A stretch of 29,806 nucleotides of DNA from a virus. The stretch's first letter is position 1; the number at the start of each line of letters is the position of its first letter. Shown here piece by piece: positions 12,689 through 28,937 of the stretch. The stretch is taken from positions 1 to 29,806 of IMG/VR virus record IMGVR_UViG_3300042876_000881. One strand, given 5' to 3'. The translations under genes were made by a program, and so were the position numbers. Below the pieces are notes generated by a model. The model did not search any database, was not told where the DNA came from, and saw only the letters and a program-made list of their open reading frames with translations.

Positions 12689-12961
12689 TTATTCAACGGG
12701 CGATCGCTCTTGTGTTCCGCGAATCATCGGGGTTGAAAGCATGGTTCTGCAAACATCCGCCTGATGCTCTTTTATTTTCCAGATCTCCGAAACTGTTATC
12801 AGATCGTCAACCTCACGCTCTAGCCGATCAAGCTCTTTTTCTAAGAAGATCCGATATTTGTCAGCATATATTCTGGTAATTTCGCCCACAAGGAAAACAT
12901 ACTCTCCCTCTGTAATCCTCCCTGCTTTTAGCTCACGATCCAGTTGCTCATATTCTTTCAT
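12689..12961 (-). CDS. Coiled-coil protein with SHOCT-like N-terminus (90 aa)
   Basis: ATG 12961 has AGGAGA seven bases upstream, so the longer reading to 13039 is not used. The 90-residue product begins KEYEQLDRELKAGRITEGEY, similar to short SHOCT-type helices that help proteins oligomerise, and continues as a charged coiled coil (about 30-65, YRIFLEKELDRLEREVDDL). It has no membrane segment. It is the last gene of the minus-strand operon led by the HTH protein at 17888 and may act as a cytoplasmic partner of the membrane ATPase. The role is inferred from position. Confidence 0.6.
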   Translation of the reverse strand: MKEYEQLDRELKAGRITEGEYVFLVGEITRIYADKYRIFLEKELDRLEREVDDLITVSEIWKIKEHQADVCRTMLSTPMIRGTQERSPVE

Positions 12962-12993
12962 GCAATTCTCCTGACGCTTCTTTTGACCTATGC

Positions 12994-13512
12994 TCAACGG
13001 GCGATCGCCACTGCCACCAAACCCAAGCCGATCGCCCACCAGAGCCGGAGTGCTATGAACGCGATCGCCATGCTCAACCTTAATCTCCAGAGAAAACTAT
13101 CACGGTTGCGATTGAGCCAATTAGAGCGACGGCTGACCAGATACTCACTGAAGTTATGGGCACAGTTTTTAGAGTTGGAGTGACACCTCAAGCAGAGGGG
13201 GAATATCTGTAAGAACGGCATTTCAAAGCCTGGGATAGGTAGCTTAAGGCGGATCAAGCAACTGGCGACAACTACCACACCTGCCAATACTGCACAACTC
13301 ACCAAGGGCAACCTGTGAGCGATCGCCATCATCACCAGCGCCCCTAGAACGGAAGCTAATAGCCAGGGCACTAAGTCAAGCCCATAGTAAGCATGATGAA
13401 CTTGGGCGGCTTTTCTCAGGCATAGACAACAGCGGTCATTGGTGAGCGCCCTTGTGAAGTTAGCAGTGTGCCGCCATTTAGTTGGGTGATATCTAGGGTC
13501 TCTACTTTCCAT
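12994..13512 (-). CDS. HNH-like protein with membrane helices inside the finger (172 aa)
   Basis: ATG 13512 has GAGG seven bases upstream and overlaps the ATPase gene by 11 bases. The sequence holds the parts of an HNH nuclease finger: CCLC (C28 and C31 as a CxxC), HH (39-40), GFE (95-97) and LCLRCH (C107, C110, H111). In HNH proteins the HH and GxE parts are normally about 10 residues apart; here about 55 residues containing two membrane helices (about 48-65 and 69-88) are inserted. A third membrane segment lies at about 143-165. It could be a membrane nuclease that cuts DNA as the neighbouring ATPase moves it, or a zinc structural protein. The pattern is clear, the activity is inference. 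Confidence 0.65.
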   Translation of the reverse strand: MESRDPRYHPTKWRHTANFTRALTNDRCCLCLRKAAQVHHAYYGLDLVPWLLASVLGALVMMAIAHRLPLVSCAVLAGVVVVASCLIRLKLPIPGFEMPFLQIFPLCLRCHSNSKNCAHNFSEYLVSRRSNWLNRNRDSFLWRLRLSMAIAFIALRLWWAIGLGLVAVAIAR

Positions 13513-15148
13513 TGGGTTGCCTCGAAAATCTCCAAATTGATTTGCCGTTGGGCTGTTGTTCAATCTGTCCCCAACCTGCCTGGGCAAGGTAGCTCAGGAA
13601 TTGGTTGAAGCCGTCTGCTCCGTTGGTGCCGTTGTCCTGCCACCAATTCTTCCTGATCCTCGCCACATGAAACGCGCCATCCTCCAGAAACTTACCGCCG
13701 CGCTCTGGGTCGGAAATATACGTCATGAAGCTGTTGATCAGTTCGGGGGGATATTGGGGACTTAGGCAACTTTTTAGATAGGCGATCGCATCTTCTCTCG
13801 GAGGAAGTTTGACCTCGTCAAAATCTGCATAGTCAGGCTGCACCGTTTCCGGCTCGACGACTGCCACGGGTGCGGATAGCTCCGCGCATTCAGCCTGATC
13901 AGAGATTGAGGTCAGCGCTCCGTATCTTGCCTTGCTCAGGTCTGGCAGCTTATAAAGATCGGTTCCTCCTAGCGTCGTGAAGGCAAGTGGGATTGATAGG
14001 TTTTGAGTTTTGTCGTTGCGATAGAACGCTAACAGCTTTTCTAAGCGTCTTCGTTCGGATGTACTACTAACTACATAGATATTAGATACTGCATCTTCAA
14101 CGCTCTGATAGTCTCCATTCCGCGCCAGTGCGACGTAGGACATATTGTCTTGAACGCTGGTATCCAGGCACAGCAGCTTAACGCGAGTTGTTTGAGCCAT
14201 CAACCAAATGTAGACCCGATCCTCTGCCCCCTGGAAGATGAACCGCTCGATTAACGAACAGAGCTTTGCCGCTGTGCGTGGGTTGCCTTCTGGGTTTTCC
14301 TTGGTCGGACGGCTGGGGAATTGGTCGTCGTAAGATCGCGCCAGTGACAGGAGTGTGTTGAACTCATCAACGCAGATAAATATCGGCATTGGTGGATTCT
14401 CTCCCCAGTGCCCACCGATTGCAACCCGCTGGTGTTGGCGGCGCTCTAGAACTCCCTCAAGGATCGAGAGTCGTTCAATTAGTTGAGGTATCCGGTTTTT
14501 GTTATTGCAAAACAGATAGTGATCCGAGTCCTTTTCCAGCCCACACCAGGCGGCTCCTTTCGGGTCGAAGATATGGAAATCAGCCAACCCCTTATGGCAC
14601 TCAGAGGCAGCGGCGATCGCCCCCTGAATCAGCGTTGTCTTACCAGACCGAGTTCGACTGGCAACAAGAAAATGACCTTCGTATGTGCCCATCTCTGATG
14701 GGATGTAGCGCTCAACAATCTGAGCGGCAACCCGTTGGATTTCCTCTTGGGATGCGTTGCCAACGTCAGAAGAAATAGATGGGGCGCTATCGCTACTTCC
14801 TCCAGCCGATTCAAGCAGTGCTTCATACTGCCGTTCTTCAAGCAGGTCTTCAAATGTCAATGATGCGCTTAGTTTTTGGCGATCGCGCATCTTCACTAGC
14901 TTCTTCATCCGTTCGTTCTCTGCCCATTCGCCATTAGGTTGAGCTGCAACTGCCACCGACACAGAACACACAAGACTTGCCAACAAACCCGCATACCGCA
15001 GCGATCGCGGCATTGACCGGGGAGATAGAGAGGTTATCCATAAAAAAGCTGCCAAAACCAACAACCCGATAGGTGAGACTTTTGGCAGCAGTTGAGCGAG
15101 GCTGAGGAGGATTTGACCGCTCAGCCGAGAGAGCCTAACAGAGTCCAT
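13502..15148 (-). CDS. Membrane-anchored FtsK/VirD4-like ATPase (548 aa)
   Basis: I start at ATG 15148, with GGAG eight bases upstream; a longer frame to 15193 overlaps the preceding gene more. Two membrane segments (about 24-41 and 52-69) precede a cytosolic part. It has a P-loop ASRTRSGKT (163-171), in which the usual first glycine is replaced, FHIFDPKG (191-198), and a Walker B PIFICVDEF (255-263). The DPKG motif is typical of FtsK/TraD/VirD4 DNA pumps. The C-terminal 150 residues look like a winged-helix region ending GWGQIEQQ and SIWRF. It probably moves DNA at the membrane, for segregation, transfer or entry. The family is not the FtsK of cell division; no gamma-domain repeat is evident. 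Confidence 0.75.
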   Translation of the reverse strand: MDSVRLSRLSGQILLSLAQLLPKVSPIGLLVLAAFLWITSLSPRSMPRSLRYAGLLASLVCSVSVAVAAQPNGEWAENERMKKLVKMRDRQKLSASLTFEDLLEERQYEALLESAGGSSDSAPSISSDVGNASQEEIQRVAAQIVERYIPSEMGTYEGHFLVASRTRSGKTTLIQGAIAAASECHKGLADFHIFDPKGAAWCGLEKDSDHYLFCNNKNRIPQLIERLSILEGVLERRQHQRVAIGGHWGENPPMPIFICVDEFNTLLSLARSYDDQFPSRPTKENPEGNPRTAAKLCSLIERFIFQGAEDRVYIWLMAQTTRVKLLCLDTSVQDNMSYVALARNGDYQSVEDAVSNIYVVSSTSERRRLEKLLAFYRNDKTQNLSIPLAFTTLGGTDLYKLPDLSKARYGALTSISDQAECAELSAPVAVVEPETVQPDYADFDEVKLPPREDAIAYLKSCLSPQYPPELINSFMTYISDPERGGKFLEDGAFHVARIRKNWWQDNGTNGADGFNQFLSYLAQAGWGQIEQQPNGKSIWRFSRQPNGK

Positions 15149-15399
15149 ATCACTGCTCCAATTCCAGTTATCACGCAGGCGATCGCCATCCAAAACCCGC
15201 CATAGTATTCAATCAATTCCAGGTCTAACCAGTTGGCGATCGCATCATCCAGATTCCATCCGATATAGGCGATCGCGAGAATTATTAGAGATGCGATCGC
15301 CCAGGTTTGCCAGGGCTGAGAGAGTATCCACAAGCTCAGCAGAGAGGAAGTAATGCAGCCCGTTAAAAAACAGGCTGCGAGAAAATAAAGCCGTCTCAT
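15121..15399 (-). CDS. Small integral membrane protein (92 aa)
   Basis: ATG 15399 shares ATGA with the stop of the upstream gene. The 92 residues contain three hydrophobic segments (about 5-25, 33-49 and 69-90), so it is mostly embedded in the membrane. Between the second and third is a short acidic stretch (NLDDAIANWLDLELIEYY). No family recognised. It is coupled to the ATPase gene, which starts inside its end, and may form a membrane platform or channel for it. The membrane prediction is by eye from hydrophobic runs. Confidence 0.65.
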   Translation of the reverse strand: MRRLYFLAACFLTGCITSSLLSLWILSQPWQTWAIASLIILAIAYIGWNLDDAIANWLDLELIEYYGGFWMAIACVITGIGAVIWTLLGSLG

Positions 15400-15923
15400 C
15401 GGTTCAACTGATCCTCATAACGTCGGCGCATCTCAGCGAACCGATCCTGCACAGCCTTAACCTTCTTGTCTGCCATGTCTGCACCCAGCGAAAGCTTTTG
15501 CCGCAATGCCTCGTACTGGGGAACTTGCCGCAGCAGCCCACCTGCTAGGTTGGCATCTGCTTGCTTGCGCTCCAGCTCTCCAGCAGCTCGAATCGCCTGA
15601 AACTTGCGGTGTTGAACGTGAAGCTCTGTCTCTTTTTCTTCGAGTGTGATGAGCTTGCCAAGTGCGCGAATACTGCGGCTGATTGCCTTCATGAGATCAG
15701 GTTGCCGAGTTTCGATATCCTCACAGGTCACATCGTCGAGGGTTCCGGAGCTAGGGATGCTCCCAAAGCTTCTGCTAGTCCCCCAGGTTAAAGAAGAGAA
15801 CGGAGTGATAGCACTGGGCGCGGTTGGCTCCAGCACCTGATCGGTTGTGAAGCTTTGCTTCCGTCCCTGAACAGCCTTGGATAAATTGCCGCCGCCTGAA
15901 TTCTTTGCTAATTTTCCAGCCAT
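15396..15923 (-). CDS. Coiled-coil protein of the membrane-ATPase operon (175 aa)
   Basis: ATG 15923 has AGGAGA about ten bases upstream. The 175-residue protein has a low-complexity, serine/proline-rich N-terminal half (about 1-70) and a long charged helix in the second half (about 80-175, from KAISRSIRALGKLITLEEKE to the end). This is the profile of an extended coiled coil. No membrane segment. Its family is not recognised. In the operon it sits between an acidic protein and a membrane protein and could be a scaffold linking the ATPase with other parts. Confidence 0.6.
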   Translation of the reverse strand: MAGKLAKNSGGGNLSKAVQGRKQSFTTDQVLEPTAPSAITPFSSLTWGTSRSFGSIPSSGTLDDVTCEDIETRQPDLMKAISRSIRALGKLITLEEKETELHVQHRKFQAIRAAGELERKQADANLAGGLLRQVPQYEALRQKLSLGADMADKKVKAVQDRFAEMRRRYEDQLNR

Positions 15924-15936
15924 TGATTAGGTTCTC

Positions 15937-16179
15937 CTAAAAGTCAAAGTTCAATAGTTCGTTTAGGTCGTCTTCGAGTTGAGAGAAGAGGTCGTCCTCT
16001 GGTGTGCTTTGCTTGCCTCCGAATGCCTGGTGAACGGCTGCAAAGCTTGGAAGCTGTTGGTAATTATCTTCGTCATCGTCCGAGGCTTCGGAGTCCAACA
16101 GGTTTAAGTCTTCGTCTGTTTGTTGCAGCCAGTCGGGCAGACTGGAGGGCGATCGCATTGGTTGATTTGGTTTTGGCAT
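15937..16179 (-). CDS. Small acidic protein (80 aa)
   Basis: ATG 16179 overlaps the previous stop as TGATG; a GTG directly before it (16182) is an alternative start. The 80 residues are very acidic, with EASDDDEDN and a C-terminal LFSQLEDDLNELLNF helix. Such proteins often bind basic partners or imitate DNA. I do not recognise the family. It belongs to the membrane-ATPase operon and lies just upstream of the coiled-coil gene. The gene is supported by coupling and length; the role is unknown. Confidence 0.6.
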   Translation of the reverse strand: MPKPNQPMRSPSSLPDWLQQTDEDLNLLDSEASDDDEDNYQQLPSFAAVHQAFGGKQSTPEDDLFSQLEDDLNELLNFDF

Positions 16180-16628
16180 CACTCATCACCAGTCAGTGTG
16201 ATCATGCCGAACACTGCAACGATGCCGACACAGCCAGCGATCGCCGCTCGATTGGCGAACAAGTCTTTTTGCTCAGCCGACCCAGAGGCAAAGGCACAGA
16301 CAGTCATTAGCAACGCAGCTAAAGAACTAACTCCAAGGGAGCAAACGAAAAACCGCTCAGTCAAGCCTCTCAGTGATGGCGATCGCTTGACCTTAATCAG
16401 TTCAAATGGAGGCAGTTCGGGGCAAGAGGAAACAGAGGCATCAAATTCAATCTGCTCGATCCGGTTCTCTGCGTCACGAAGGCGATCGAATGCTATGTCT
16501 TGAGCGGATTGAGACAGCTCAAGTTTGAATTCAAGCACCTCAATTCTGTCCATCAGCTCCTCAAATCTTTCATCAATAGAAGGGCTTTCAGTCTCGGAAT
16601 TGTGACCATTAAGCAATTGGGTTTCCAT
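16179..16628 (-). CDS. Coiled-coil protein with C-terminal membrane hairpin (149 aa)
   Basis: ATG 16628 has AGGAGA three bases before ATT, a good ribosome site. Residues about 16-62 are a regular heptad-like coiled coil (IDERFEELMDRIEVLEFKLE and on). After a cysteine/proline linker come two membrane segments (about 92-112 and 126-145) with a charged loop, so both ends probably face the same side. No family is recognised. It lies downstream of a set of AGCGG repeats that probably control it. It may be a membrane scaffold or anchor for the ATPase complex. Confidence 0.65.
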   Translation of the reverse strand: METQLLNGHNSETESPSIDERFEELMDRIEVLEFKLELSQSAQDIAFDRLRDAENRIEQIEFDASVSSCPELPPFELIKVKRSPSLRGLTERFFVCSLGVSSLAALLMTVCAFASGSAEQKDLFANRAAIAGCVGIVAVFGMITLTGDE

Positions 16629-16636
16629 AATTCTCC

Positions 16637-16681
16637 TAGCGGGTGGGTTAGCGGATAGCGGGTCTATTGGCGGACAGCGGA
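16637..16681 (-). promoter_or_regulatory. Operator-like array of AGCGG units
   Basis: Seven-base units of the type TAGCGGR lie at 16637, 16649, 16656, 16668 and 16675 on the plus strand, spaced 12, 7, 12 and 7 bp. They form two 14-bp tandem pairs (16649-16662 and 16668-16681) 19 bp apart, plus a half site. The array is directly upstream of the gene starting at 16628. A further pair lies inside the HTH gene at 17474-17487. Confidence 0.6.
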
Positions 16682-16721
16682 ATTAAGACAGGTCAATACT
16701 TCCGCTCGATTTTGTCAGGTT

Positions 16722-17009
16722 TTACTTAGCGCAAAAGTCGGCTTTTTCGGCTTCCATTTGGGCGTTTTCAGCTTGTAGTTGCTGCACCTCTTGGATCAGC
16801 TGTTGATGCTTCTGTTCAAAAAATCCCTTGGAAATTTTGAATGCAAACCAGCCTGAACCAACAGCGGCGATCGCCACCACTAGGAGCAATGGCAGCAAGC
16901 CAGCGTCCGACGACTGAGCGGGTGCTTGCCTGGGGAAATCCACATCGACATGGACTTTGGGTAACGGTAGTTCATAAACGTTTCTGGTCTTGACTTTGGC
17001 TTGAACCAT
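16722..17009 (-). CDS. Single-pass membrane protein with coiled-coil tail (95 aa)
   Basis: ATG 17009 has GGAG seven bases upstream; the longer frame to 17057 starts with TTG and has no ribosome site. The 95 residues begin with a basic tail, then proline-rich strands (VYELPLPKVHVDVDFPRQ), then one membrane segment (about 38-57, GLLPLLLVVAIAAVGSGWFA), and then a coiled coil with QQLQAENAQMEAEKAD. This layout, one helix in the membrane and a rod beyond it, resembles small phage or plasmid accessory proteins of unknown function. It is the second gene of the operon led by the HTH protein. Confidence 0.6.
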   Translation of the reverse strand: MVQAKVKTRNVYELPLPKVHVDVDFPRQAPAQSSDAGLLPLLLVVAIAAVGSGWFAFKISKGFFEQKHQQLIQEVQQLQAENAQMEAEKADFCAK

Positions 17010-17090
17010 TAGGGACTCCGAATGTTGAAACGTATGCCAGTGCTGTACTTGCGGCAATACTGAGCGCGATCGCCAGCACCGCCAGAATTA

Positions 17091-17888
17091 TTACTTTTTT
17101 GTCGTAGAGCGCTTGCTAACCTGTACGCCTTGCTGTGCCTGGGTTGCCATCGAATTGACCAGATCACCCATGGCGCTATTGACCTGAGTAGATGCCGCGT
17201 GAACCATTTGTTGAGCAATTCGATTGCCCAAATTAGTGCCGAGCAGACCGCCTAATTGAGTCGCTGCTTCAAAGTGGGTTCCAAGATTTAGCCCAAAGGT
17301 ATTCAGTCCAGTGTTGATATCTTCTTCGAGGGTTGCGATCGCCCCGTCGTCAAATTCCTGATAGATCACCAGGTCAGAGCCTAATTCTTCAGACTCGATA
17401 ACTTCCACCTCGATCGGGGTTGGACTGCTGAATTGCCGAGTCTGACTGAATCCCGCTACTTCCTCTGATCCGGGCGCGGATAGCGGATTAGGCGAAATGC
17501 CTTCGCGATTCCAAACGTGTTCTGCAAACAATTTCAGGGTGAATTGCGGGGTCTGTTTCACCGTTGCGGCAATCCCCTGTTTGTTGGTTTTCCCGGTCGG
17601 ATCGGGGATGCGGGTAAGGGTCGCTGCTTGCAATTCTTGGATGCGCTCTCTTAGCCACTGGGTGGGTCTGCCAGACTCGTAAGCCAGACTGGCAAAGCGA
17701 TCGTGCCAGATCCAAGCAACTTCTTTTGCTCTGGTCTGCACCGATCGCTCGGAGCTGTAGCCACACATCTTTGCGATCCGCAGCATGGTCAGCGGCTCCC
17801 AAGTCGTCACTTTGGCGGGTGAAATTGAGGGTGCAGTTTCGGGTGAAACTTCGGGCGCGATCGCTTCTGCTGCAATAGATTTAGCCAT
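17091..17888 (-). CDS. Helix-turn-helix protein beside iterons (265 aa)
   Basis: ATG 17888 has GGAAGG six bases upstream, and TTG two codons earlier is not needed. Residues about 36-55 (LTMLRIAKMCGYSSERSVQT) form a clear helix-turn-helix with a KMCGYSSE turn. The N-terminus has four-residue repeats of the form SP-x-x or AP-x-x, coded by 12-bp repeats like the upstream iterons. The C-terminal 100 residues are acidic then glycine- and alanine-rich with many polar residues (about 185-265). It may bind the GGGTGAAT or GGTTACCAA repeats between it and the divergent gene and act as a replication, segregation or operon regulator. None of these is proved; no known Rep fold is evident. Confidence 0.55.
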   Translation of the reverse strand: MAKSIAAEAIAPEVSPETAPSISPAKVTTWEPLTMLRIAKMCGYSSERSVQTRAKEVAWIWHDRFASLAYESGRPTQWLRERIQELQAATLTRIPDPTGKTNKQGIAATVKQTPQFTLKLFAEHVWNREGISPNPLSAPGSEEVAGFSQTRQFSSPTPIEVEVIESEELGSDLVIYQEFDDGAIATLEEDINTGLNTFGLNLGTHFEAATQLGGLLGTNLGNRIAQQMVHAASTQVNSAMGDLVNSMATQAQQGVQVSKRSTTKK

Positions 17889-17909: not shown

Positions 17910-17949
17910 GGGTGAATTGCCGGGTGAATCACGGGGTGAATTTCACCCC
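17910..17949. repeat. GGGTGAAT iterons, 12-bp period
   Basis: GGGTGAAT occurs at 17910, 17922 and 17934, exactly 12 bp apart. The last copy merges into the 17-bp palindrome GGGGTGAA-T-TTCACCCC (17933-17949). The same core is found inside the adjacent gene at 17817, 17829 (variant) and 17841. Confidence 0.8.
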
Positions 17950-17971
17950 TCTGAATCAGAGGATAGCACAT

Positions 17972-18058
17972 GGTTACCAATTGGTTACCAATATGGTTAT
18001 CAATTGGTAACAAATAATATGATTGAAGAGATCACTTTAAGATGGTTACCAACTGGTA
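17972..18058. repeat. GGTTACCAA iterons ahead of 18062 gene
   Basis: GGTTACCAATT (17972), GGTTACCAATAT (17983) and GGTTATCAATT (17995) are 11-12 bp apart; an inverted copy of the form TTGGTAACA follows at 18004, and a fifth site TTACCAACTGGTAA lies at 18046-18059, just before ATG 18062. The set lies in the 173-bp gap between divergent genes. Confidence 0.8.
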
Positions 18059-18483: not shown

Positions 18484-19098
18484 ATGATAATCACGATCGC
18501 CAGCCTTAAGGGTGGGGTTGGCAAAACGACAACAGCATTTCACTTCGCGGCGATCGCCAACGAGATCGCCCCCACGGTCTTAGTAGATGGAGATCCAAAT
18601 AGAAGCGCGATCGCCTGGTCACAGCAAAACGATCAGGCGACTTTTACTGTGATCTCAGAGAAGCAGTTGCCTAAGTACGGCGGCAAATTTGAGAACATCG
18701 TCATCGATACCCAAGCGCGTCCAACGCCGGACGATTTCAGAGACCTGGTAGAAGCGTCTGATCTGATCGTTCTGCCGACCCCGCCGACTTTTCTAGACCT
18801 GTCTTCGACGCTGGAAACGGTGCAGGTCTTAAGCGATGTTGGCTCAACAATCCATAGAGTTTTGTTGACCAAGGTTCCGACCAACACCCGCTCGACCGAC
18901 GAAGCGGACGCACGGGCTTTTCTGTGTGATCATTCGATCGCTGTCTTTGCTGGCAGAATTCGGTTTTACAAGGCGTTTGAGAGAGCGGCTCTGGGTGGCG
19001 TCGAGGTTGGCAAGGTGAAGGGCGATCGCAATTCGAAGCTAGCCTGGAACGACTATCAGGCAGTGGTGAGAGAAGCTATTGAGGTGATCAATGGGTAA
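18484..19098 (+). CDS. parA: ParA-type partition ATPase (204 aa)
   Basis: ATG 18484 has GGAG eight bases upstream. The protein has the deviant Walker A motif KGGVGKTT (residues 9-16), followed by VDGDPNRSA (34-42) and a Walker B NIVIDTQA (about 71-78). It is only 204 residues and has no N-terminal DNA-binding domain, which matches the small type Ib-like ParA group used by plasmids and some phages. It would bind DNA non-specifically in the ATP form and move plasmid copies apart with a centromere-binding partner. A ParB is encoded 0.9 kb downstream and an unknown protein upstream; the true partner could be either. Confidence 0.88.
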   Translation: MIITIASLKGGVGKTTTAFHFAAIANEIAPTVLVDGDPNRSAIAWSQQNDQATFTVISEKQLPKYGGKFENIVIDTQARPTPDDFRDLVEASDLIVLPTPPTFLDLSSTLETVQVLSDVGSTIHRVLLTKVPTNTRSTDEADARAFLCDHSIAVFAGRIRFYKAFERAALGGVEVGKVKGDRNSKLAWNDYQAVVREAIEVING

Positions 19099-19792: not shown

Positions 19793-19994
19793 GCCATGCA
19801 CGTGCGATCGCACTCCACATAAACACGGTCAAGACCGTGACGGATACCAGCGCTGGAAATGCCCAAAGTGTAATCTAACATGGTCGGACAATCCAGATCC
19901 TAAACCATTCAGAAAACCCTGCTTGAGCGATCGCGCCATGACCCCAGCCGAAAGGAAACGCGCCCAACGTGCAAGGCGTAAAGCCGATGGGTAA
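19785..19994 (+). CDS. Small zinc-finger protein resembling transposase N-termini (69 aa)
   Basis: ATG 19785 overlaps the upstream stop by eight bases. It has CTCDRTPHKHGQDRD (C5 and C7 with His 12 and 14) and then QRWKCPKCNLTW (a CxxC), the general pattern of the InsA-like zinc fingers found at the start of IS1-type and some plasmid proteins. A basic C-terminus (TPAERKRAQRARRK) would bind nucleic acid. It is encoded within the par region and its end overlaps parB by eight bases. No transposase body follows, so it is probably a small DNA-binding protein and not an IS remnant. Confidence 0.6.
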   Translation: MNKPCTCDRTPHKHGQDRDGYQRWKCPKCNLTWSDNPDPKPFRKPCLSDRAMTPAERKRAQRARRKADG

Positions 19995-20856
19995 ATTTTC
20001 CCGAATCAAAACCCTTCAGAATTCTGGCGACTCCGATCCGGTTGAGTCCGGTGCAGAAATGGCGATCGCCCTCATCCATCCATCAACCAACCAACCCAGA
20101 AAACATTTTGACCAGAGCAGGCTAGATGCTCTGGTTTTGTCTGTCCGAGAGCAGGGGATTTTAGAGCCGCTGTTAGTTCGTCCGATTGCTGACGGGTTCG
20201 AGATCGTTGCAGGTGAGCGGAGATATAGAGCCGCTCAGATCGTCGGACTCAAAACTGTGCCAGTCGTGGTTAAGGATGTGGGCGATCGCGAAGCATTTGA
20301 AATAGCTCTGATCGAAAACCTCCAACGGGAAGACCTAAATCCGATTGAAGAAACCGAGGGAGTTTTAGGGCTGCTATCGTTAAGACTGGGGATAGAGTTG
20401 GGGCAGGTTCAAGCGCTACTGCACACCCTGGTAAAAGACTCTAGTAACGTTACTAGACGAGCTGAGACGGAAGAGGTTTTAGAGCAGCTAGGAATCAACC
20501 TGGTGAGTTTCGCAACCAACCGACTACCGATCCTCAGACTGCCAGACGATGTTCAGGACGCAATCAGGAAGGGATTGGAATACACCAAGGCACGGGCGAT
20601 CGCCAGAGTCAAAAATGACGAGCAACGCCAGATCCTGATCGAGAAGGCGCTGACTGAAAACTTGTCATTAACCCAGATCAAAGAACTGATCAAGGGGTTT
20701 AGTTCGGGGGGTGCCGTTGCTAGGGATGCGATTGGCGATCGCGTTCAGTCTGTGCTGAAAAAAATTAATAAGGCAAAATTAGAGCAGATGCCGGGAGCGA
20801 AGCGACGGCAGCTAGAAGGCTACCTAGAAAAGATTGAGCAGATGTTAGGAGATTAG
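19987..20856 (+). CDS. parB: ParB-type partition protein (289 aa)
   Basis: I start at ATG 19987, which shares eight bases with the previous stop. The N-terminal ParB domain has the CTP-binding box GERRYRAA (76-83) and the second box ENLQREDLNPIEE (110-122). A helix-turn-helix region follows (about 125-205), then a long charged C-terminus likely to mediate dimerisation. Such proteins load on centromeres and slide along DNA when bound to CTP. With the ParA 0.9 kb upstream this forms a partition module, probably with a parS site nearby. An 18-bp perfect palindrome inside this gene is one candidate site. The C-terminal GFSSGGA is coded by a near copy of the dispersed motif. Confidence 0.85.
   Translation: MGKFSRIKTLQNSGDSDPVESGAEMAIALIHPSTNQPRKHFDQSRLDALVLSVREQGILEPLLVRPIADGFEIVAGERRYRAAQIVGLKTVPVVVKDVGDREAFEIALIENLQREDLNPIEETEGVLGLLSLRLGIELGQVQALLHTLVKDSSNVTRRAETEEVLEQLGINLVSFATNRLPILRLPDDVQDAIRKGLEYTKARAIARVKNDEQRQILIEKALTENLSLTQIKELIKGFSSGGAVARDAIGDRVQSVLKKINKAKLEQMPGAKRRQLEGYLEKIEQMLGD
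20440..20457. repeat. 18-bp perfect palindrome inside parB
   Basis: TCTAGTAACGTTACTAGA is self-complementary over 18 bp, centred on AACGTT. Its location inside the parB coding region makes it a candidate centromere (parS-like) site; it does not match the classical TGTTTCACGTGAAACA. Confidence 0.7.
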
Positions 20857-20858
20857 AA

Positions 20859-21353
20859 ATGGAAAAGCGAGTGAACATTGAGGACTGGTCTTTAGCTCTT
20901 CAGGGATTGCTGGAAGACTCTCAAATCGAACTGACGAAAATCTTAAGCACTGAGGACTTAGATCGGGAGGAACTAAGAAGCTATGACAGTTCGCTGTCCT
21001 TGCTAATGGAAGAAATCGCAGCCGTACTAAAAAGCGATCGCAAGATTCGGATCAAGGCAGCGCCGGACAGGGGATGGACTGAGTATGAGGTCAAGACATC
21101 CATAGGTATCACCAACTATGACATGTGGAGATTTGACGCAGGGGGCGTGACGCTTAGATCAATTCAGTCGATTGAGGTTGTCCCTAGTGAAAGCGATCGC
21201 GTGATTGCGGATGGGTGGAAAGCCGTCGATAAAGTCGTCAAGGATCGGTGTCAAGCGCTCAAGGCTTCGCTCGGCATCGAAGATGTCGAAGAGATCGGGG
21301 TCGTTGACGACTACTGGCAGATCATCGCACGAATGCTAAACCCCCAACTTTGA
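20859..21353 (+). CDS. Unknown protein downstream of parB (164 aa)
   Basis: ATG 20859 follows the parB stop by two bases and has AGGAG eight bases upstream. The 164 residues begin with a helical region (VNIEDWSLALQGLLEDSQIE), pass through a glutamate-rich stretch and a beta-type middle (WTEYEVKTSIGITNYDMWRF), and end with helices. It has no membrane segment and I do not recognise the family. The tight spacing after parB suggests a role in maintenance or segregation. Its 3' end overlaps the EAL gene on the other strand by 18 bases (convergent). Confidence 0.65.
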   Translation: MEKRVNIEDWSLALQGLLEDSQIELTKILSTEDLDREELRSYDSSLSLLMEEIAAVLKSDRKIRIKAAPDRGWTEYEVKTSIGITNYDMWRFDAGGVTLRSIQSIEVVPSESDRVIADGWKAVDKVVKDRCQALKASLGIEDVEEIGVVDDYWQIIARMLNPQL

Positions 21354-22097
21354 ACATTCCCCAGGCATCCCGATCGCCCAACCTTGCACAAACACTTGAG
21401 GGCGATCGCTCTCCTCAGCCAAGCCCTTAGCCCAATCCCAGGTACCTTGATCCTCGACTCCTTCGAGAGTGCAGGTTGCCTCTAGCTCTGAGCAGAGAGC
21501 AGCGATCGCCCTGACAATTGCCCGTGCTCTGGAGTTGTAGATCAACTGAATCGTGAGAACGTAATCGACCTTGACCGCTGCAAAGATTGGCTGAGAGAGG
21601 CAAACGAAAGGCGAATGTCTTGACCCCTTGCCGCCTAAGTCATCCAGTACAACCGTGTGCGACTCCGCCAAGTGGGTTAGAGTTTTCCCCGCACTACTGT
21701 CAAGATCTAGATAATCCCGCTCAGTGATTTCCAGGTGCAGCAGTCGAGAGCGAGCGTTAAGCGTCGCCATTTGCTTACCCAAGTCCTGGGCAAAATACGA
21801 GGTGCCCAAAATTGCCAGACCCAGATTAACGGCGTGGGGGGTCTCTGTTCTGGCGATCGCCTCTATGCCATGCCTCAACATCCACCAGTCCAAATCAATC
21901 ATCAGAGCGTCATTGTCTGCGATCGCATCAATAAACCAACTCGCAGGAATGACCCCCATAGTCGGATGATTCAATCGGACGAGCATCTCATGTTGAGCGA
22001 TCGCCCCTTCGACTGTGGCGATCGGCTGGCAATGGACAGCGAGGCTGAACCCGTCTCGCTCGGCTAGCGCTTTTCGGATCATCAATTCCCAACCCAT
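21336..22097 (-). CDS. Stand-alone EAL-domain c-di-GMP phosphodiesterase (253 aa)
   Basis: The 253 residues are a single EAL domain with no sensor or GGDEF part. The signature series is present in order: EML (37-39, as EAL), N91, the LEITE motif (E123), DDLGG (152-156, in place of DDFG), K176, EGVE (212-215) and Q238 in VQGW. These are the metal- and c-di-GMP-binding positions in active EAL enzymes, so it may hydrolyse c-di-GMP to pGpG. It is the last gene of a three-gene operon with a membrane protein and an unknown protein. EAL proteins are unusual cargo on a phage. Alternative: a c-di-GMP receptor without catalysis. Confidence 0.82.
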   Translation of the reverse strand: MGWELMIRKALAERDGFSLAVHCQPIATVEGAIAQHEMLVRLNHPTMGVIPASWFIDAIADNDALMIDLDWWMLRHGIEAIARTETPHAVNLGLAILGTSYFAQDLGKQMATLNARSRLLHLEITERDYLDLDSSAGKTLTHLAESHTVVLDDLGGKGSRHSPFVCLSQPIFAAVKVDYVLTIQLIYNSRARAIVRAIAALCSELEATCTLEGVEDQGTWDWAKGLAEESDRPQVFVQGWAIGMPGECSKLGV

Positions 22098-24972: not shown

Positions 24973-25255
24973 GATTCATTACCAACATCCCAAAATGCCC
25001 AAGGGGCACAATGCCTGTGGGTTAGGCGATCGCAATAAAATCTTAATCTCAACAAACCTGGATGAAGTGACGTGCGATCGCTGTCTCAGAACTGCGACCG
25101 CTGGCAAAAACGGCGGCAGACCGGAAAGCGGCATGAGGCAGATTATGGTCAATGTCATGCTGCCAGTCGAAGTGATTGACTGGCTCAGCACCAAGAACAA
25201 GTCGGAAACGATCCGCACCCTCCTAATAGAGGAGATGGCAAGGGCGACTCAGTAG
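24965..25255 (+). CDS. Small protein with CxxC and RHH-like part (96 aa), sixth of the array
   Basis: ATG 24965 shares eight bases with the upstream stop, which selects it over the longer frame. The first half has a possible metal site (HNACGLGDRN; VTCDRCLRTA, a CxxC), and residues about 57-95 (MRQIMVNVMLPVEVIDWLST, then KNKSETIRTLLIEEMA) follow the ribbon-helix-helix pattern: strand, helix, turn KSE, helix. It could be a repressor or accessory DNA-binding protein of this array. Its 3' end overlaps the sigma gene on the other strand by seven bases. Confidence 0.7.
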   Translation: MPKIHYQHPKMPKGHNACGLGDRNKILISTNLDEVTCDRCLRTATAGKNGGRPESGMRQIMVNVMLPVEVIDWLSTKNKSETIRTLLIEEMARATQ

Positions 25256-25959
25256 ACGGCGCTCAACAGCTCGATAACTTCCACCAAGCGATCGCCCCCC
25301 ATCCCTCTCCGCTCAAAGAACACCCCCCGAACCAGATCCCGATCTGACGAGGGCAAGCGATCGCACCTCTCCTTAAGCAGCCTCAACTCTGATGCGATCG
25401 CCCTGATTGGTTCGGGGGGTAGCCAGTAGATTGAATCCAACTGCTCGTGAATCTCCTCATTTAACTCCACTGCTTTTTGATTGGCGATCGCACCTCTGGC
25501 AGTCCGCAACTCAACAACCGAAACAGACAACAGCTCAGCCAATTGAATATCACTCGGATAGACGCCGCAGGAATCGAACCACTGTTTTTCTGCGGCTTTC
25601 GCTTTGGCGCTCAACTCTCGCCAGCGGCGCGGCACCTTGACGATGGAGCCATGATCTCTGAGGTGGTGAAGAATGTGCCCCTTGATGAACGGCACGGCAA
25701 ACGATGACAGACTAGCGCCCATCGTCGGATCAAAGCGCTCGATTGCTCGGTTAAGCCCCAGGTATCCAATCTGCTCCAAGTCTTCATAGGGCACTGCACA
25801 TCTGGCAACAAACGAATGAGCCTGTTTTCTGACAAGTAGGAAATTTGATTGGGCGATCGCATTTCTCAGCCTGATCTGTTCGGCGGGTGCATCGTCGAAG
25901 ATTCTGAGTTTAAAGTATTGCCAAATTAGGCGCGATCGCCCTGTCTTTAGTGGCTCCAT
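25249..25959 (-). CDS. Sigma-70-family factor with shortened region 4 (236 aa)
   Basis: I start at ATG 25959, eight bases after GGGGGTGAG; a GTG 21 bases earlier is an alternative. Residues about 30-115 are a clear sigma region 2 (LRNAIAQSNFLLVRKQAHSF, then YEDLEQIGYLGLNRAIERFD, then SFAVPFIKGHILHHLRDHGS), and 116-180 looks like region 3. The remaining 55 residues correspond to region 4 but lack the second helix of the helix-turn-helix that contacts the -35 element. It resembles group 3 (alternative) sigma factors and may direct polymerase to phage late promoters with an unusual or extended -10. It overlaps the terminase gene by 13 bases and follows it. Two copies of the dispersed motif lie inside the gene. 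Confidence 0.82.
   Translation of the reverse strand: MEPLKTGRSRLIWQYFKLRIFDDAPAEQIRLRNAIAQSNFLLVRKQAHSFVARCAVPYEDLEQIGYLGLNRAIERFDPTMGASLSSFAVPFIKGHILHHLRDHGSIVKVPRRWRELSAKAKAAEKQWFDSCGVYPSDIQLAELLSVSVVELRTARGAIANQKAVELNEEIHEQLDSIYWLPPEPIRAIASELRLLKERCDRLPSSDRDLVRGVFFERRGMGGDRLVEVIELLSAVY
25321..25333 (-). repeat. Dispersed G-rich motif, exact copy (minus strand)
   Basis: Exact minus-strand copy of GGTTCGGGGGGTG in the sigma gene, sense orientation (encodes LVRGV). A second near copy on the plus strand ends in TA at 25409-25421. Confidence 0.8.
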
Positions 25960-27521
25960 CCGGCAGAACTCACCCCCCACGCTCCGGGTCTACGAGATTC
26001 GATCAACTCTACCGCAGTGTCGAGCCATGCCCAACCCGCAGCCCATGACATGATGCAGTCGTCTGTCTCGTTCATGCCCTCACGCCTGGTCGCAGAAAAT
26101 CTTTGCATCTCTCGAATGCCGTGCCAATCGTCAGGATAAATTACTTCATCCTGCTCCAACGCCAGCGCGATCCGGTCGGTGTTCACTTTCTTGCTCGATG
26201 CCGTTGTCTTAACTAGCTCGATGCGCCAATCAGGGCGATCGCTCATCAAGTTCTCAGCTATTGTCGTACCGCCGCTATTGGATTCGATCGCAACCAAGAC
26301 AGGTGCGTATCTATCTCCCAATTCCCTCACTCGCCCCCGACTGTAGGCAGTAGAGCGATCGCTTTCCCGGTACTGGGCAACGAGTGAGTAGGGGATAGAG
26401 GTGATGTCCCAGACCTGAGCAACGAACGGGTCAGACCCTCCGAAGTTCGGATCAATGCAGAGCAGATAGAAGTGATTTGCTCTCGGTTCTTGCCAGCTCC
26501 CAACTTTGTTACGGGCGATCGCTTCCAAGTTAAACAACGAGCCACCGTCTTTGGGTAGCCCCAAGTTATGCTCCCGCTCTGCCTCTGCCTGGGTGATCTT
26601 CTTTTTGATCCGTTTCTCTTCGACGTAGTTGGGATTGCTCCCATATATCGGATGTGCCTTGTGTCCGATGATGACTTTGACCCAGCCGCCATCATCCTCC
26701 CAGGCACAGAAGCCGGGGATAGGTGCGATGTCTACTCTGGTGCGGTTGAAAAATTCGCCTGATCGGGCAACTTGCAGCATCTGCTCAATATCGATATCGG
26801 ACGGGTTGCCGTCTTCGCCTCGCTCCCAGTACCAACAGTTCCTCCCCTCTGGTGGGATTGTCGAGACGATGAATGTCCTGGCATCCTCTCCGACCATCTC
26901 TTGAGAGGGTGTTGACGCGGCGTACATCTCATCAATGATCGGAATGAATCCGCTCTCGTCAAAGAACAAATCCCAGACAGACTCAAGACCGCGAGTAGCG
27001 TTAGAGGTCGAAGGTCTAAAGTTCAGTTCGCCACCCCCGATCGCTTTCCTCACCCCAATGTTGTCAATCTCCCACGCGAAATCTGGGATCTGCGACGGCA
27101 TCCGCTCGATCCGCTTGCTGACCTTATGGGCGTCTTTTTCGGTGATTGAAAACACTGCCCCGGCATAGGCAGGGTTGCCCGTTGAGCGGTAGAGCATCCA
27201 GCAGATTAGCAACTCGGTTAGTCCTAGCTGCCTGTCCTTGCAGACCCACATCCCCGGATACTCGAAGGCAAGACGAGCGATCGCCAACTGATAGGCGAAC
27301 AGCGGATCGAACCGGATCAACCTGGTTCCGGATCTGACAACGCACTGCGAGGCAAACTCGACAAATCCCTCGATCGTGAACGTAGGGGCGATCGCAACAG
27401 TGCTAAGATTTTCGGCTCTAATTTCGAGCAGCCGCTTCTCTGCGATCCTCGACAGTTGCGATCGCGTGGAGGACGGTAATGAAAAGCTCTTCCGGTAGGA
27501 TGCTTTCAAGCTGTCTAACAA
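25947..27521 (-). CDS. terL: Terminase large subunit (524 aa, start uncertain)
   Basis: The packaging motor. The ATPase half has the adenine-binding Q-like segment FDPLFAYQ (71-78), a classic phage-type Walker A variant CKDRQLGLT (94-102), Walker B WDLFFDES (183-190) and the coupling motif IVSTIPPEG (218-226). The nuclease half has the acidic residues D357 (CIDPNFGGSD), E413 (VAIESNS) and D487/D488 (NETDDC). Numbering is from TTG 27521. This start has no good ribosome site and overlaps the small terminase by 104 bases, but no ATG or GTG lies between it and the first conserved residues. It would cut and pump DNA into the head through the portal. Confidence 0.9.
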   Translation of the reverse strand: MLDSLKASYRKSFSLPSSTRSQLSRIAEKRLLEIRAENLSTVAIAPTFTIEGFVEFASQCVVRSGTRLIRFDPLFAYQLAIARLAFEYPGMWVCKDRQLGLTELLICWMLYRSTGNPAYAGAVFSITEKDAHKVSKRIERMPSQIPDFAWEIDNIGVRKAIGGGELNFRPSTSNATRGLESVWDLFFDESGFIPIIDEMYAASTPSQEMVGEDARTFIVSTIPPEGRNCWYWERGEDGNPSDIDIEQMLQVARSGEFFNRTRVDIAPIPGFCAWEDDGGWVKVIIGHKAHPIYGSNPNYVEEKRIKKKITQAEAEREHNLGLPKDGGSLFNLEAIARNKVGSWQEPRANHFYLLCIDPNFGGSDPFVAQVWDITSIPYSLVAQYRESDRSTAYSRGRVRELGDRYAPVLVAIESNSGGTTIAENLMSDRPDWRIELVKTTASSKKVNTDRIALALEQDEVIYPDDWHGIREMQRFSATRREGMNETDDCIMSWAAGWAWLDTAVELIESRRPGAWGVSSAGWSH

Positions 27522-27964: not shown

Positions 27965-28060
27965 GTGTGCCAATAAATACCAAGTATAGCTGTGTGCCGC
28001 TTTTGTGTGCCGCTTATTTCGCTGAAACCCTTGTGGGGAGAGGCTTTGAGCGAATATAAT
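27965..28060. promoter_or_regulatory. Divergent promoter region between terS and second ParB gene
   Basis: On the plus strand TATAAT (28055-28060) with TTGTGG (28031-28036), 18 bp apart, precedes the ParB-like gene; it overlaps the possible ATG 28059, which is therefore rejected as the start. On the minus strand TATACT (27988-27983) is a -10 for terS. TGTGTGCCGCTT is repeated at 27991-28002 and 28004-28015 (13-bp period) and GTGTGCC again at 27965-27971. Confidence 0.6.
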
Positions 28061-28085
28061 GGTAACAACCACACAGGAGAGCGCA

Positions 28086-28937
28086 ATGACCGCAACCCTA
28101 ATTCAAGACATTCCTCTTAATAGAATCTTCCCAAATCCAGATCAGCCACGCAAGGCTTTTGACTCAGAGCATATCAGCAACCTGGCTGAGTCAATCAAAA
28201 CCAACGGTTTACTTCAGCCGATCGTGGTTGTCCCCCGGTTCGGCAAGTACATGATCGTATCTGGCGAATGCAGATATAGAGCGCACTGCAAGATCGGCGC
28301 GGCGTCCATCCAGGCAATCATCAGAGCAGATATCAACTCAGCAGGAAAGCAGGCTATTCAGATCAGCGCAATCATTGAGAACGTGATCCGAAAAGATATG
28401 ACCCCGATGGAAGAGGCTAGAGCATACAGCAGCCTGCTTGCGTCGATACCCATTGAGGAGCTAGCTCGATCCATCGGCGTCGCCAAGTTTCGGATCGCTT
28501 GGAGGGTCAAGCTTCTCGACATGATTCCAGCCGCTCAAAACGCATTCGATAATGGTGAGCTGAGCATGACTCAGGCGAGGACATTGGGCGAGATGCCGGA
28601 AGGCTTGCAAGAGAAACTGTTTGCCATGATCCAGGCTGGCAGATGCAATACGGACGCAAAGCTTAAGGCAGCTAAAGCCGTCCTCATGTCTCCAGTGATG
28701 TCCCAGTCATCGCTGGACATTCAGACGGTTGATGACAGCAAGGCGATCGCAATGAAGCGGAAGTTAGAAGCGATCGCCGCAGAGTTGGCAGATCTGACCG
28801 TGAACTACAAAGATGATCCATCGACAATGTCCGGGCATCTGATGAGCCAAAACCAGGCAACGCTGGACAACATGATCAGAACGGCTCAGATGCTGCAAAA
28901 AGAGCTTTACTCGCAGCAGTTCAAAGCCTGCGTATAG
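28086..28937 (+). CDS. Second ParB-like DNA-binding protein (283 aa)
   Basis: ATG 28086 has AGGAG six bases upstream; the in-frame ATG at 28059 lies in the -10 element. It has the ParB-domain layout: LNRIFPNPDQPRKAFDSEHI, a box GECRYRAH (GERR becomes GECR), and ENVIRKDMTPMEEA, then a helix-turn-helix (LARSIGVAKFRIAWRVK) and an alanine-rich C-terminus. The arginine of the CTP-binding box is replaced by cysteine. Many phages encode such proteins as replication, transcription or nuclease-like factors and not for partition. It is distinct from the other ParB of this window and has no ParA next to it. Confidence 0.82.
   Translation: MTATLIQDIPLNRIFPNPDQPRKAFDSEHISNLAESIKTNGLLQPIVVVPRFGKYMIVSGECRYRAHCKIGAASIQAIIRADINSAGKQAIQISAIIENVIRKDMTPMEEARAYSSLLASIPIEELARSIGVAKFRIAWRVKLLDMIPAAQNAFDNGELSMTQARTLGEMPEGLQEKLFAMIQAGRCNTDAKLKAAKAVLMSPVMSQSSLDIQTVDDSKAIAMKRKLEAIAAELADLTVNYKDDPSTMSGHLMSQNQATLDNMIRTAQMLQKELYSQQFKACV

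Follow-up and report, generated by a model that had tools for sequence, protein, structure and literature searches.

What would a cyanobacterial virus do with nine tandem genes that code for an ATPase, an HNH-like protein and a set of small membrane and coiled-coil proteins? The original prediction, made from the letters of this DNA, was that they form an undescribed operon for handling DNA at the membrane, perhaps a translocation system serving segregation, transfer or entry. Here, we examine which of these genes have relatives elsewhere, what company those relatives keep and which function fits them best.

Results

The phage and its nine-gene cluster

The window, by which we mean the whole stretch of 29,806 bases analysed here, is an IMG/VR virus record in which the cyanobacterial HIP1 octamer GCGATCGC is abundant. 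It codes for a portal protein (PHROG 145, E = 1.5e-83), a terminase 41% identical to the terminases of Cylindrospermopsis phages, a Rad52-like annealing protein, ParA and two ParB proteins, and is thus clearly a cyanophage contig (about 29.8 kb), from a phage with plasmid-type partition genes. Searches for nucleotide-level matches of the window to phages and plasmids found none, and the closest terminase relatives of this phage lack the module described below, which therefore does not belong to the core gene set of its phage group. The two ParB proteins differ from one another, and only one is encoded near ParA (Table 1), the other lying at 28059-28937 (+). The contig also encodes an EAL domain protein of the cyclic di-GMP-degrading type at 21336-22097 (-) (PF00563, 5.4e-28) and, adjoining the terminase genes, a sigma-70 region 2 protein at 25249-25980 (-) (PF04542, 4.3e-12).

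All nine tandem ORFs of the cluster are present on the minus strand between 12689 and 17894, and hydropathy, charge and motif checks agree with the topology, charge and motifs that had been predicted for their products (Table 1); hydropathy assigns two TM segments to the HNH-like protein as well. The small overlaps said to link the genes stand in part: several genes do abut or overlap, but the likelier ATG starts of the ATPase, HNH-like and last genes shrink some of the annotated overlaps. A codon model trained on the other genes of the window favoured the true frame in six of the nine ORFs; 12689-13039 was ambiguous, and the two membrane-protein ORFs 15121-15399 and 12994-13587 were unsupported, the latter being supported by homology instead. 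Promoter and terminator scans gave results at or below chance. It had also been claimed that this is not a standard phage morphogenesis or conjugation cluster, and the claim is supported: it is neither a morphogenesis cluster nor a standard T4SS. Neither of the two relaxase families tested occurs in the window, and no tail parts lie inside the cluster, though the window is clearly phage. A lysis function of the small TM proteins was considered and rejected, their spanin matches reaching only E = 0.18-0.57.

The HTH gene was described as lying beside iterons, and two repeat arrays are indeed found upstream of it at 17910-18052. Both are contained in the 168 bp that lie between the cluster and the divergent ParAB operon on the plus strand, a region common to the two. 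The window holds six copies of GGGTGAAT, a number reached by none of 100 shuffles; the GGTTACCAA-type 9-mers, counted across the window as a whole, exceed shuffles only mildly (5 of 100 reach the count), and their clustering is the notable part.

Table 1. Features of the cluster and of the adjoining divergent operon, in window coordinates.
Feature	Position	Strand	Basis or remark
116-aa coiled-coil protein, last ORF	12689..13039	-	likely start ~12961; no relatives found
HNH-like nuclease-type protein	12994..13587 (likely 12994-13512)	-	family HMM, phmmer, alignment
Predicted membrane-anchored FtsK-HerA-type ATPase, two N-terminal TMs	13502..15193	-	likely start ~15148
92-aa three-TM protein, place of protein D	15121..15399	-	three TMs by hydropathy
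175-aa coiled-coil protein, place of protein C	15396..15923	-	SD-like TAGGAGAA upstream
Acidic 81-aa protein, net charge -16	15937..16182	-	4-bp overlap with 16179..16628
Acidic coiled-coil protein, two C-terminal TM segments	16179..16628	-	hydropathy
Single-TM protein, C-terminal coiled coil	16722..17057	-	TM aa 54-72; likely start 17009
HTH protein, 265-267 aa, helical C-terminal part	17091..17888	-	AGGAAGG upstream; first cluster gene
Three GGGTGAAT repeats, 12-bp spacing	17910..17941		just upstream of HTH gene
GGTTACCAA-type iterons, partly palindromic (TTGGTTACCAA)	17972..18052		9-mers: three exact, three with one mismatch
ParA	18484..19098	+	PF01656, 1.3e-11; divergent operon, iteron region common with cluster
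ParB	19969..20856	+	PF02195, 1.7e-31; 3' of ParA

An ATPase of the FtsK-HerA superfamily

The ATPase carries a Walker A motif (SRTRSGKTT), a DPKG motif and a Walker B motif (IFICVDEFN). First pattern scans with the window protein alone found no relatives. By tblastn it matched a Kovacikia plasmid (1e-17) and Leptolyngbya phage Lbo402-yong5 (1e-15; hereafter yong5), whose homologue is annotated as a 'DNA translocase coupling protein', and yong5 together with the plasmids related to it then led to further relatives. The window protein is recovered at E = 1.4e-22, far above reversed-sequence decoys, by an HMM of the family made from other sequences only.

No PADLOC, PHROGs, NCBIfam or Pfam family matches the window ATPase above its curated cut-off. 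It scores 14.6 bits against the 24 needed for FtsK/SpoIIIE (PF01580), and for the T4SS coupling proteins (VirD4, TraD) the SXT_TraD model gives 13.1 bits for the window and 23.1 for yong5 against a cut-off of 366, with no coupling-protein Pfam match of the VirD4/TraD type at E<=1. A profile of the window protein and its distant relatives matched, among PDB entries, EccC (1.2e-14), TcpA (3e-5) and FtsK (7.6e-5). The AlphaFold model of the window ATPase is too poor to use (pLDDT 42); that of a relative, L015, has a mean pLDDT of 69, with most of the motor core at 70-89. The fold search with the L015 model, which covered essentially residues 171-459, found TcpA as the best match (Z 15.9 over 231 residues, 3.5 A), followed by EssC, FtsK and HerA at Z 12-15. 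Since TcpA leads EssC by only 1.0 Z, the safe statement is that the family belongs to the FtsK-HerA superfamily, among the DNA pumps, judging by the predicted fold of this relative; the pumping of DNA would be the corresponding activity.

A recurrent module with two demonstrable homologues in the window

The ATPase family extends through yong5 to the Aphanizomenon phage CL131 and then to Nostoc and Halotia plasmids, with further relatives at 14 IMG/VR loci and at 36 loci in Nostoc and close relatives. Its members share a gene order in which A, B, C and D come before the ATPase; B has one TM, C is helical, D has about three TM and the ATPase has two. This order is kept in CL131, yong5, Nostoc and Halotia plasmids, viral contigs, genome G565 and prophage G574; in yong5 and G574 an HTH gene precedes A. 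Nearly all of these genes are recorded as 'hypothetical protein'. In the searchable part of the literature we found no description of the module, and the CL131 genome paper mentions neither gp108 nor gp113.

Because the first family HMMs had been seeded with window proteins, they were rebuilt without the window. The rebuilt models of A, B and C detected no window protein, including the product of 15396..15923 at the place of C, and that of D reached its top window ORF, 15121..15399, at E = 0.28-0.33, which is not significant. The early strong scores of the window's C and D proteins came from the seeding, and these two were dropped as proven homologues. It follows from the window-free models that two of the nine window proteins, the ATPase and the HNH-like protein, are demonstrably homologous to conserved module genes, judged by sequence, and that the others resemble the module in order, size and topology alone. 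Thus, the HTH gene occupies the place of the HTH gene and protein A of the relatives with no sequence homology detected, the product of 16722..17057 resembles protein B in position and topology and is not homologous to it by sequence, and a coiled-coil/TM gene of locus L097 (4260-4718) is similar to 16179..16628 in position and class.

The prediction was to fall if the genes did not co-occur in other genomes, but the ATPase/HNH pair is found again in yong5, viral contigs, a prophage and many Nostoc plasmids; the seven other proteins are without demonstrated homologues. The proposed membrane DNA-translocation operon is partly supported, in that the fold and profile of the ATPase place it among DNA pumps, the nine genes together being a putative unit.

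The nuclease-like partner

With the window likewise left out of its family HMM, the HNH-like protein is recovered at E = 2.1e-16, again far above reversed-sequence decoys, and its closest relatives are three copies in G196 (phmmer, 5.5e-39, 4e-33 and 1.2e-30). An alignment of 14 sequences has C53, C56, H64, H65, C132 and H144 invariant, so that the family has the His pair and the zinc-binding Cys residues by which HNH proteins are recognised. In the window protein a hydrophobic TM hairpin is inserted in the finger, between VHH and FPLCxxCH, and a further TM segment lies at the C-terminus; the insert is also present in the G196 copies at L128 and L129. As for curated HNH families, neither the window protein nor that of L129 has a match in Pfam, and PHROG 144 (HNH) matches only at E = 0.25. 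G196 holds three divergent ATPase/HNH clusters altogether (L104, L128 and L129), one of them with M23 peptidase and lysozyme genes.

At about 28 loci with a near-complete ATPase, in Nostoc plasmids and contigs, viral contigs, genome G565 and prophage G574, the HNH gene lies directly downstream of the ATPase gene on the same strand, with a stop-to-stop distance of 236-410 bp; some of these loci are near-duplicates and should not be counted as independent events. In yong5 and the three G196 copies the HNH gene is found 1.5-3.1 kb downstream of the ATPase. No HNH copy was detected in L015, L026, L030 and L038, and in L005 (10539-13200) a LAGLIDADG homing endonuclease gene and an IS630 transposase interrupt the module 3' of the ATPase gene, with an HNH remnant 2.6 kb from the ATPase. 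For the Nostoc plasmid loci examined, the HNH gene is missing from the gene tables, which are known to be incomplete; at L007 (10308-10754) and L006 (10371-10820), for instance, its open frame begins inside the ATPase gene.

A second subtype, made up of CL131 and five viral contigs, has no HNH gene; its ATPase is about 640 aa long and ends in a C-terminal PD-(D/E)XK domain (PF08011, best 1.5e-4), so that CL131 gp108 (L004, 7989-9914) is an ATPase fused to a putative nuclease domain. Phage yong5 carries both the HNH protein and a separate homologue of the PD-(D/E)XK domain. This apparent exchange of one nuclease fold for another suggests that nuclease activity matters to the module.

Relaxases, wall hydrolases and hosts

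Relaxases were searched for with two families, PF03432 and PF08751. Neither is present in the window (a possibly incomplete contig), yong5, CL131 or five module-bearing viral contigs, and in 11 genomes neither was ever on the contig of the ATPase, G196 with its three clusters having neither at all. Several plasmids have a relaxase elsewhere, and some module-bearing Nostoc plasmids carry a MOBF relaxase and MPF_T.

In other cyanobacterial genomes, more divergent ATPases are surrounded by HTH genes, by genes for small TM proteins and by those for peptidoglycan hydrolases, the last being M23 and GH108 in L098, M23 in L099, M23 and lysozyme (GH24) in L104, which also has an HNH gene, and NlpC/P60 and GH108 in L126; P4-type phage/plasmid primases occur in L125 and L126. 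In the ATPase tree, whose deep nodes are weakly supported, the hydrolase clusters fall in two places. These hydrolases point to a crossing of the cell wall, which for the window is indirect evidence.

In a phylum-wide sample of 386 genomes the close family turned up in two, Nostoc sp. KVJ20 being one, and an order-wide search of 293 genomes gave eight with close or divergent members; the first-look filter of these surveys may miss diverged copies. All named hosts (Nostoc, Desmonostoc, Komarekiella, Halotia, Leptolyngbya, Kovacikia and Aphanizomenon) are, as we take it, filamentous; this may be a sampling effect, as the search seeds came from filamentous hosts.

Discussion

Going by sequence comparison, this is a real, recurrent and undescribed mobile-element module of a putative pump-plus-nuclease type. 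The module combines a putative membrane pump and its nuclease-like partner with small membrane proteins and with a DNA-binding protein that has repeats beside it, a combination that fits the transport of DNA at the membrane, and by analogy with TraB, TcpA and TdtA we tentatively favour, at a probability of about 0.4, a membrane pump that with its nuclease partner moves the element's dsDNA between cells. The HTH protein would bind the iterons and so mark the DNA of the element, and the small membrane and coiled-coil proteins would form or position a pore or scaffold in the membrane. On this scaffold the ATPase, anchored by its two TM helices, would assemble and pump DNA, as the fold of its relative suggests, while the HNH-like protein, or the PD-(D/E)XK domain in the other subtype, could open or trim that DNA, in keeping with its motifs. 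The phage or plasmid genome would then pass to a neighbour cell with neither relaxase nor VirB channel, and filaments, whose cells have continuous peptidoglycan and septal pores, would be the natural setting.

Export between cells is the best fit to the wall hydrolases and the plasmid distribution. Several observations speak against it: phages that make virions have no obvious need for cell-to-cell transfer, the hydrolases accompany distant relatives only and not the window module, some module-bearing Nostoc plasmids possess the MOBF relaxase and MPF_T, seven of the nine window genes lack demonstrated homologues, and the closest terminase relatives of the phage are without the module. A serious alternative, if a rather unlikely one, is superinfection exclusion or defence, in which the membrane ATPase would seize incoming DNA and the HNH or PD-(D/E)XK nuclease would destroy it, so protecting the resident element. 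HerA-type ATPase-nuclease pairs are known defence systems, HerA complexes are near in fold (Z 12-14), and presence in temperate phages and plasmids together with absence from related phages would suit an accessory weapon. The PADLOC model mad8, of MADS defence, also matches weakly (E 3e-4 to 6e-7, with one value of 8.8e-6), but this likeness covers no more than about 50-110 residues near the P-loop; among the module proteins scanned no others have a PADLOC match, and no full PADLOC system is present. Moreover, peptidoglycan hydrolases beside several distant relatives would be unexpected of a defence system, and the HTH, iteron and ParA setting suggests that the DNA handled is that of the element itself.

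That same setting could instead reflect segregation, with an FtsK-like pump at the membrane or septum, a DNA-binding protein and iterons clearing or partitioning phage-plasmid copies together with ParA/ParB. The iteron region common to the cluster and the divergent ParA-ParB operon, the ParA found downstream of the module in G565 (L102) and the many plasmids that carry the module would agree with this. Segregation would, however, have no need of a conserved nuclease partner, and the annotations of yong5, CL131 and the Nostoc loci show no ParA next to the module; we consider this reading improbable. A role in the infection cycle, the membrane complex helping phage DNA to enter or to reach replication sites and plasmids having captured the module secondarily, would account for its presence in the isolated phages yong5 and CL131, but with many copies on plasmids and host contigs, and sister phages that lack the module, it is very improbable.

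Among known systems, TcpA of the Clostridium perfringens plasmid pCW3, a membrane-anchored protein with a coupling role in conjugation, is closest in its FtsK-HerA motor domain, a likeness that concerns the ATPase alone; it differs in that here the constant neighbour is a nuclease-like gene with no relaxase of the tested families nearby. The HerA-DUF4297 and SIR2-HerA defence complexes share the superfamily fold and the pairing of a pump with an effector or nuclease, but their HerA is soluble, whereas the module ATPase is predicted to be membrane-anchored and stands in an operon with membrane proteins. TdtA of ICETh1, which serves transjugation in Thermus, is a membrane-associated FtsK-HerA donor ATPase whose adjoining nuclease, NurA, is needed for efficient transfer (PMC5365140). 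It resembles the module as a mobile-element FtsK-HerA ATPase with a nuclease encoded alongside. In the module, however, that nuclease is HNH-like or PD-(D/E)XK (Pfam scans gave no NurA match for it), the ATPase has TM helices of its own, and several small membrane proteins and an HTH protein accompany it.

In Streptomyces, which is filamentous, TraB recognises 8-bp clt repeats and is accompanied by the small accessory Spd proteins. TraB of Streptomyces plasmids is an FtsK-like dsDNA pump (PMC5365140). By analogy, and as far as a likeness based on description goes, the module shares with it a putative dsDNA pump, small accessory proteins, short repeats as a candidate recognition site and filamentous hosts; in contrast to the module ATPase, TraB has its own HTH and no nuclease partner. 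We regard as unlikely the broader proposal that, in phages and plasmids of filamentous cyanobacteria alike, a relaxase-free, membrane-anchored FtsK-type pump with an HNH-type nuclease, itself membrane-embedded in some elements, spreads the element's dsDNA from cell to cell along the filament as a Gram-negative counterpart of TraB.

The pair of a pump-like motor and a nuclease-like protein that recurs in cyanobacterial viruses and plasmids may thus make up a so far undescribed machine that moves or destroys DNA at the membrane. If it transfers DNA, it would provide a dsDNA route free of relaxase and VirB in cells of the Gram-negative type, common to viruses and plasmids, and could explain the spread of phage-plasmids in multicellular cyanobacteria; if it excludes DNA, it would be a membrane defence system not described before. 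In both cases, the ATPase and the nuclease-like protein give a testable core to a recurrent set of genes annotated almost throughout as 'hypothetical protein'. At two loci (L102, 3862-5352; L103, 9253-10623) the N- and C-terminal parts of the ATPase match the family and the central motor (GARGSGKST) is very divergent, which suggests replacement or fast change of the motor.
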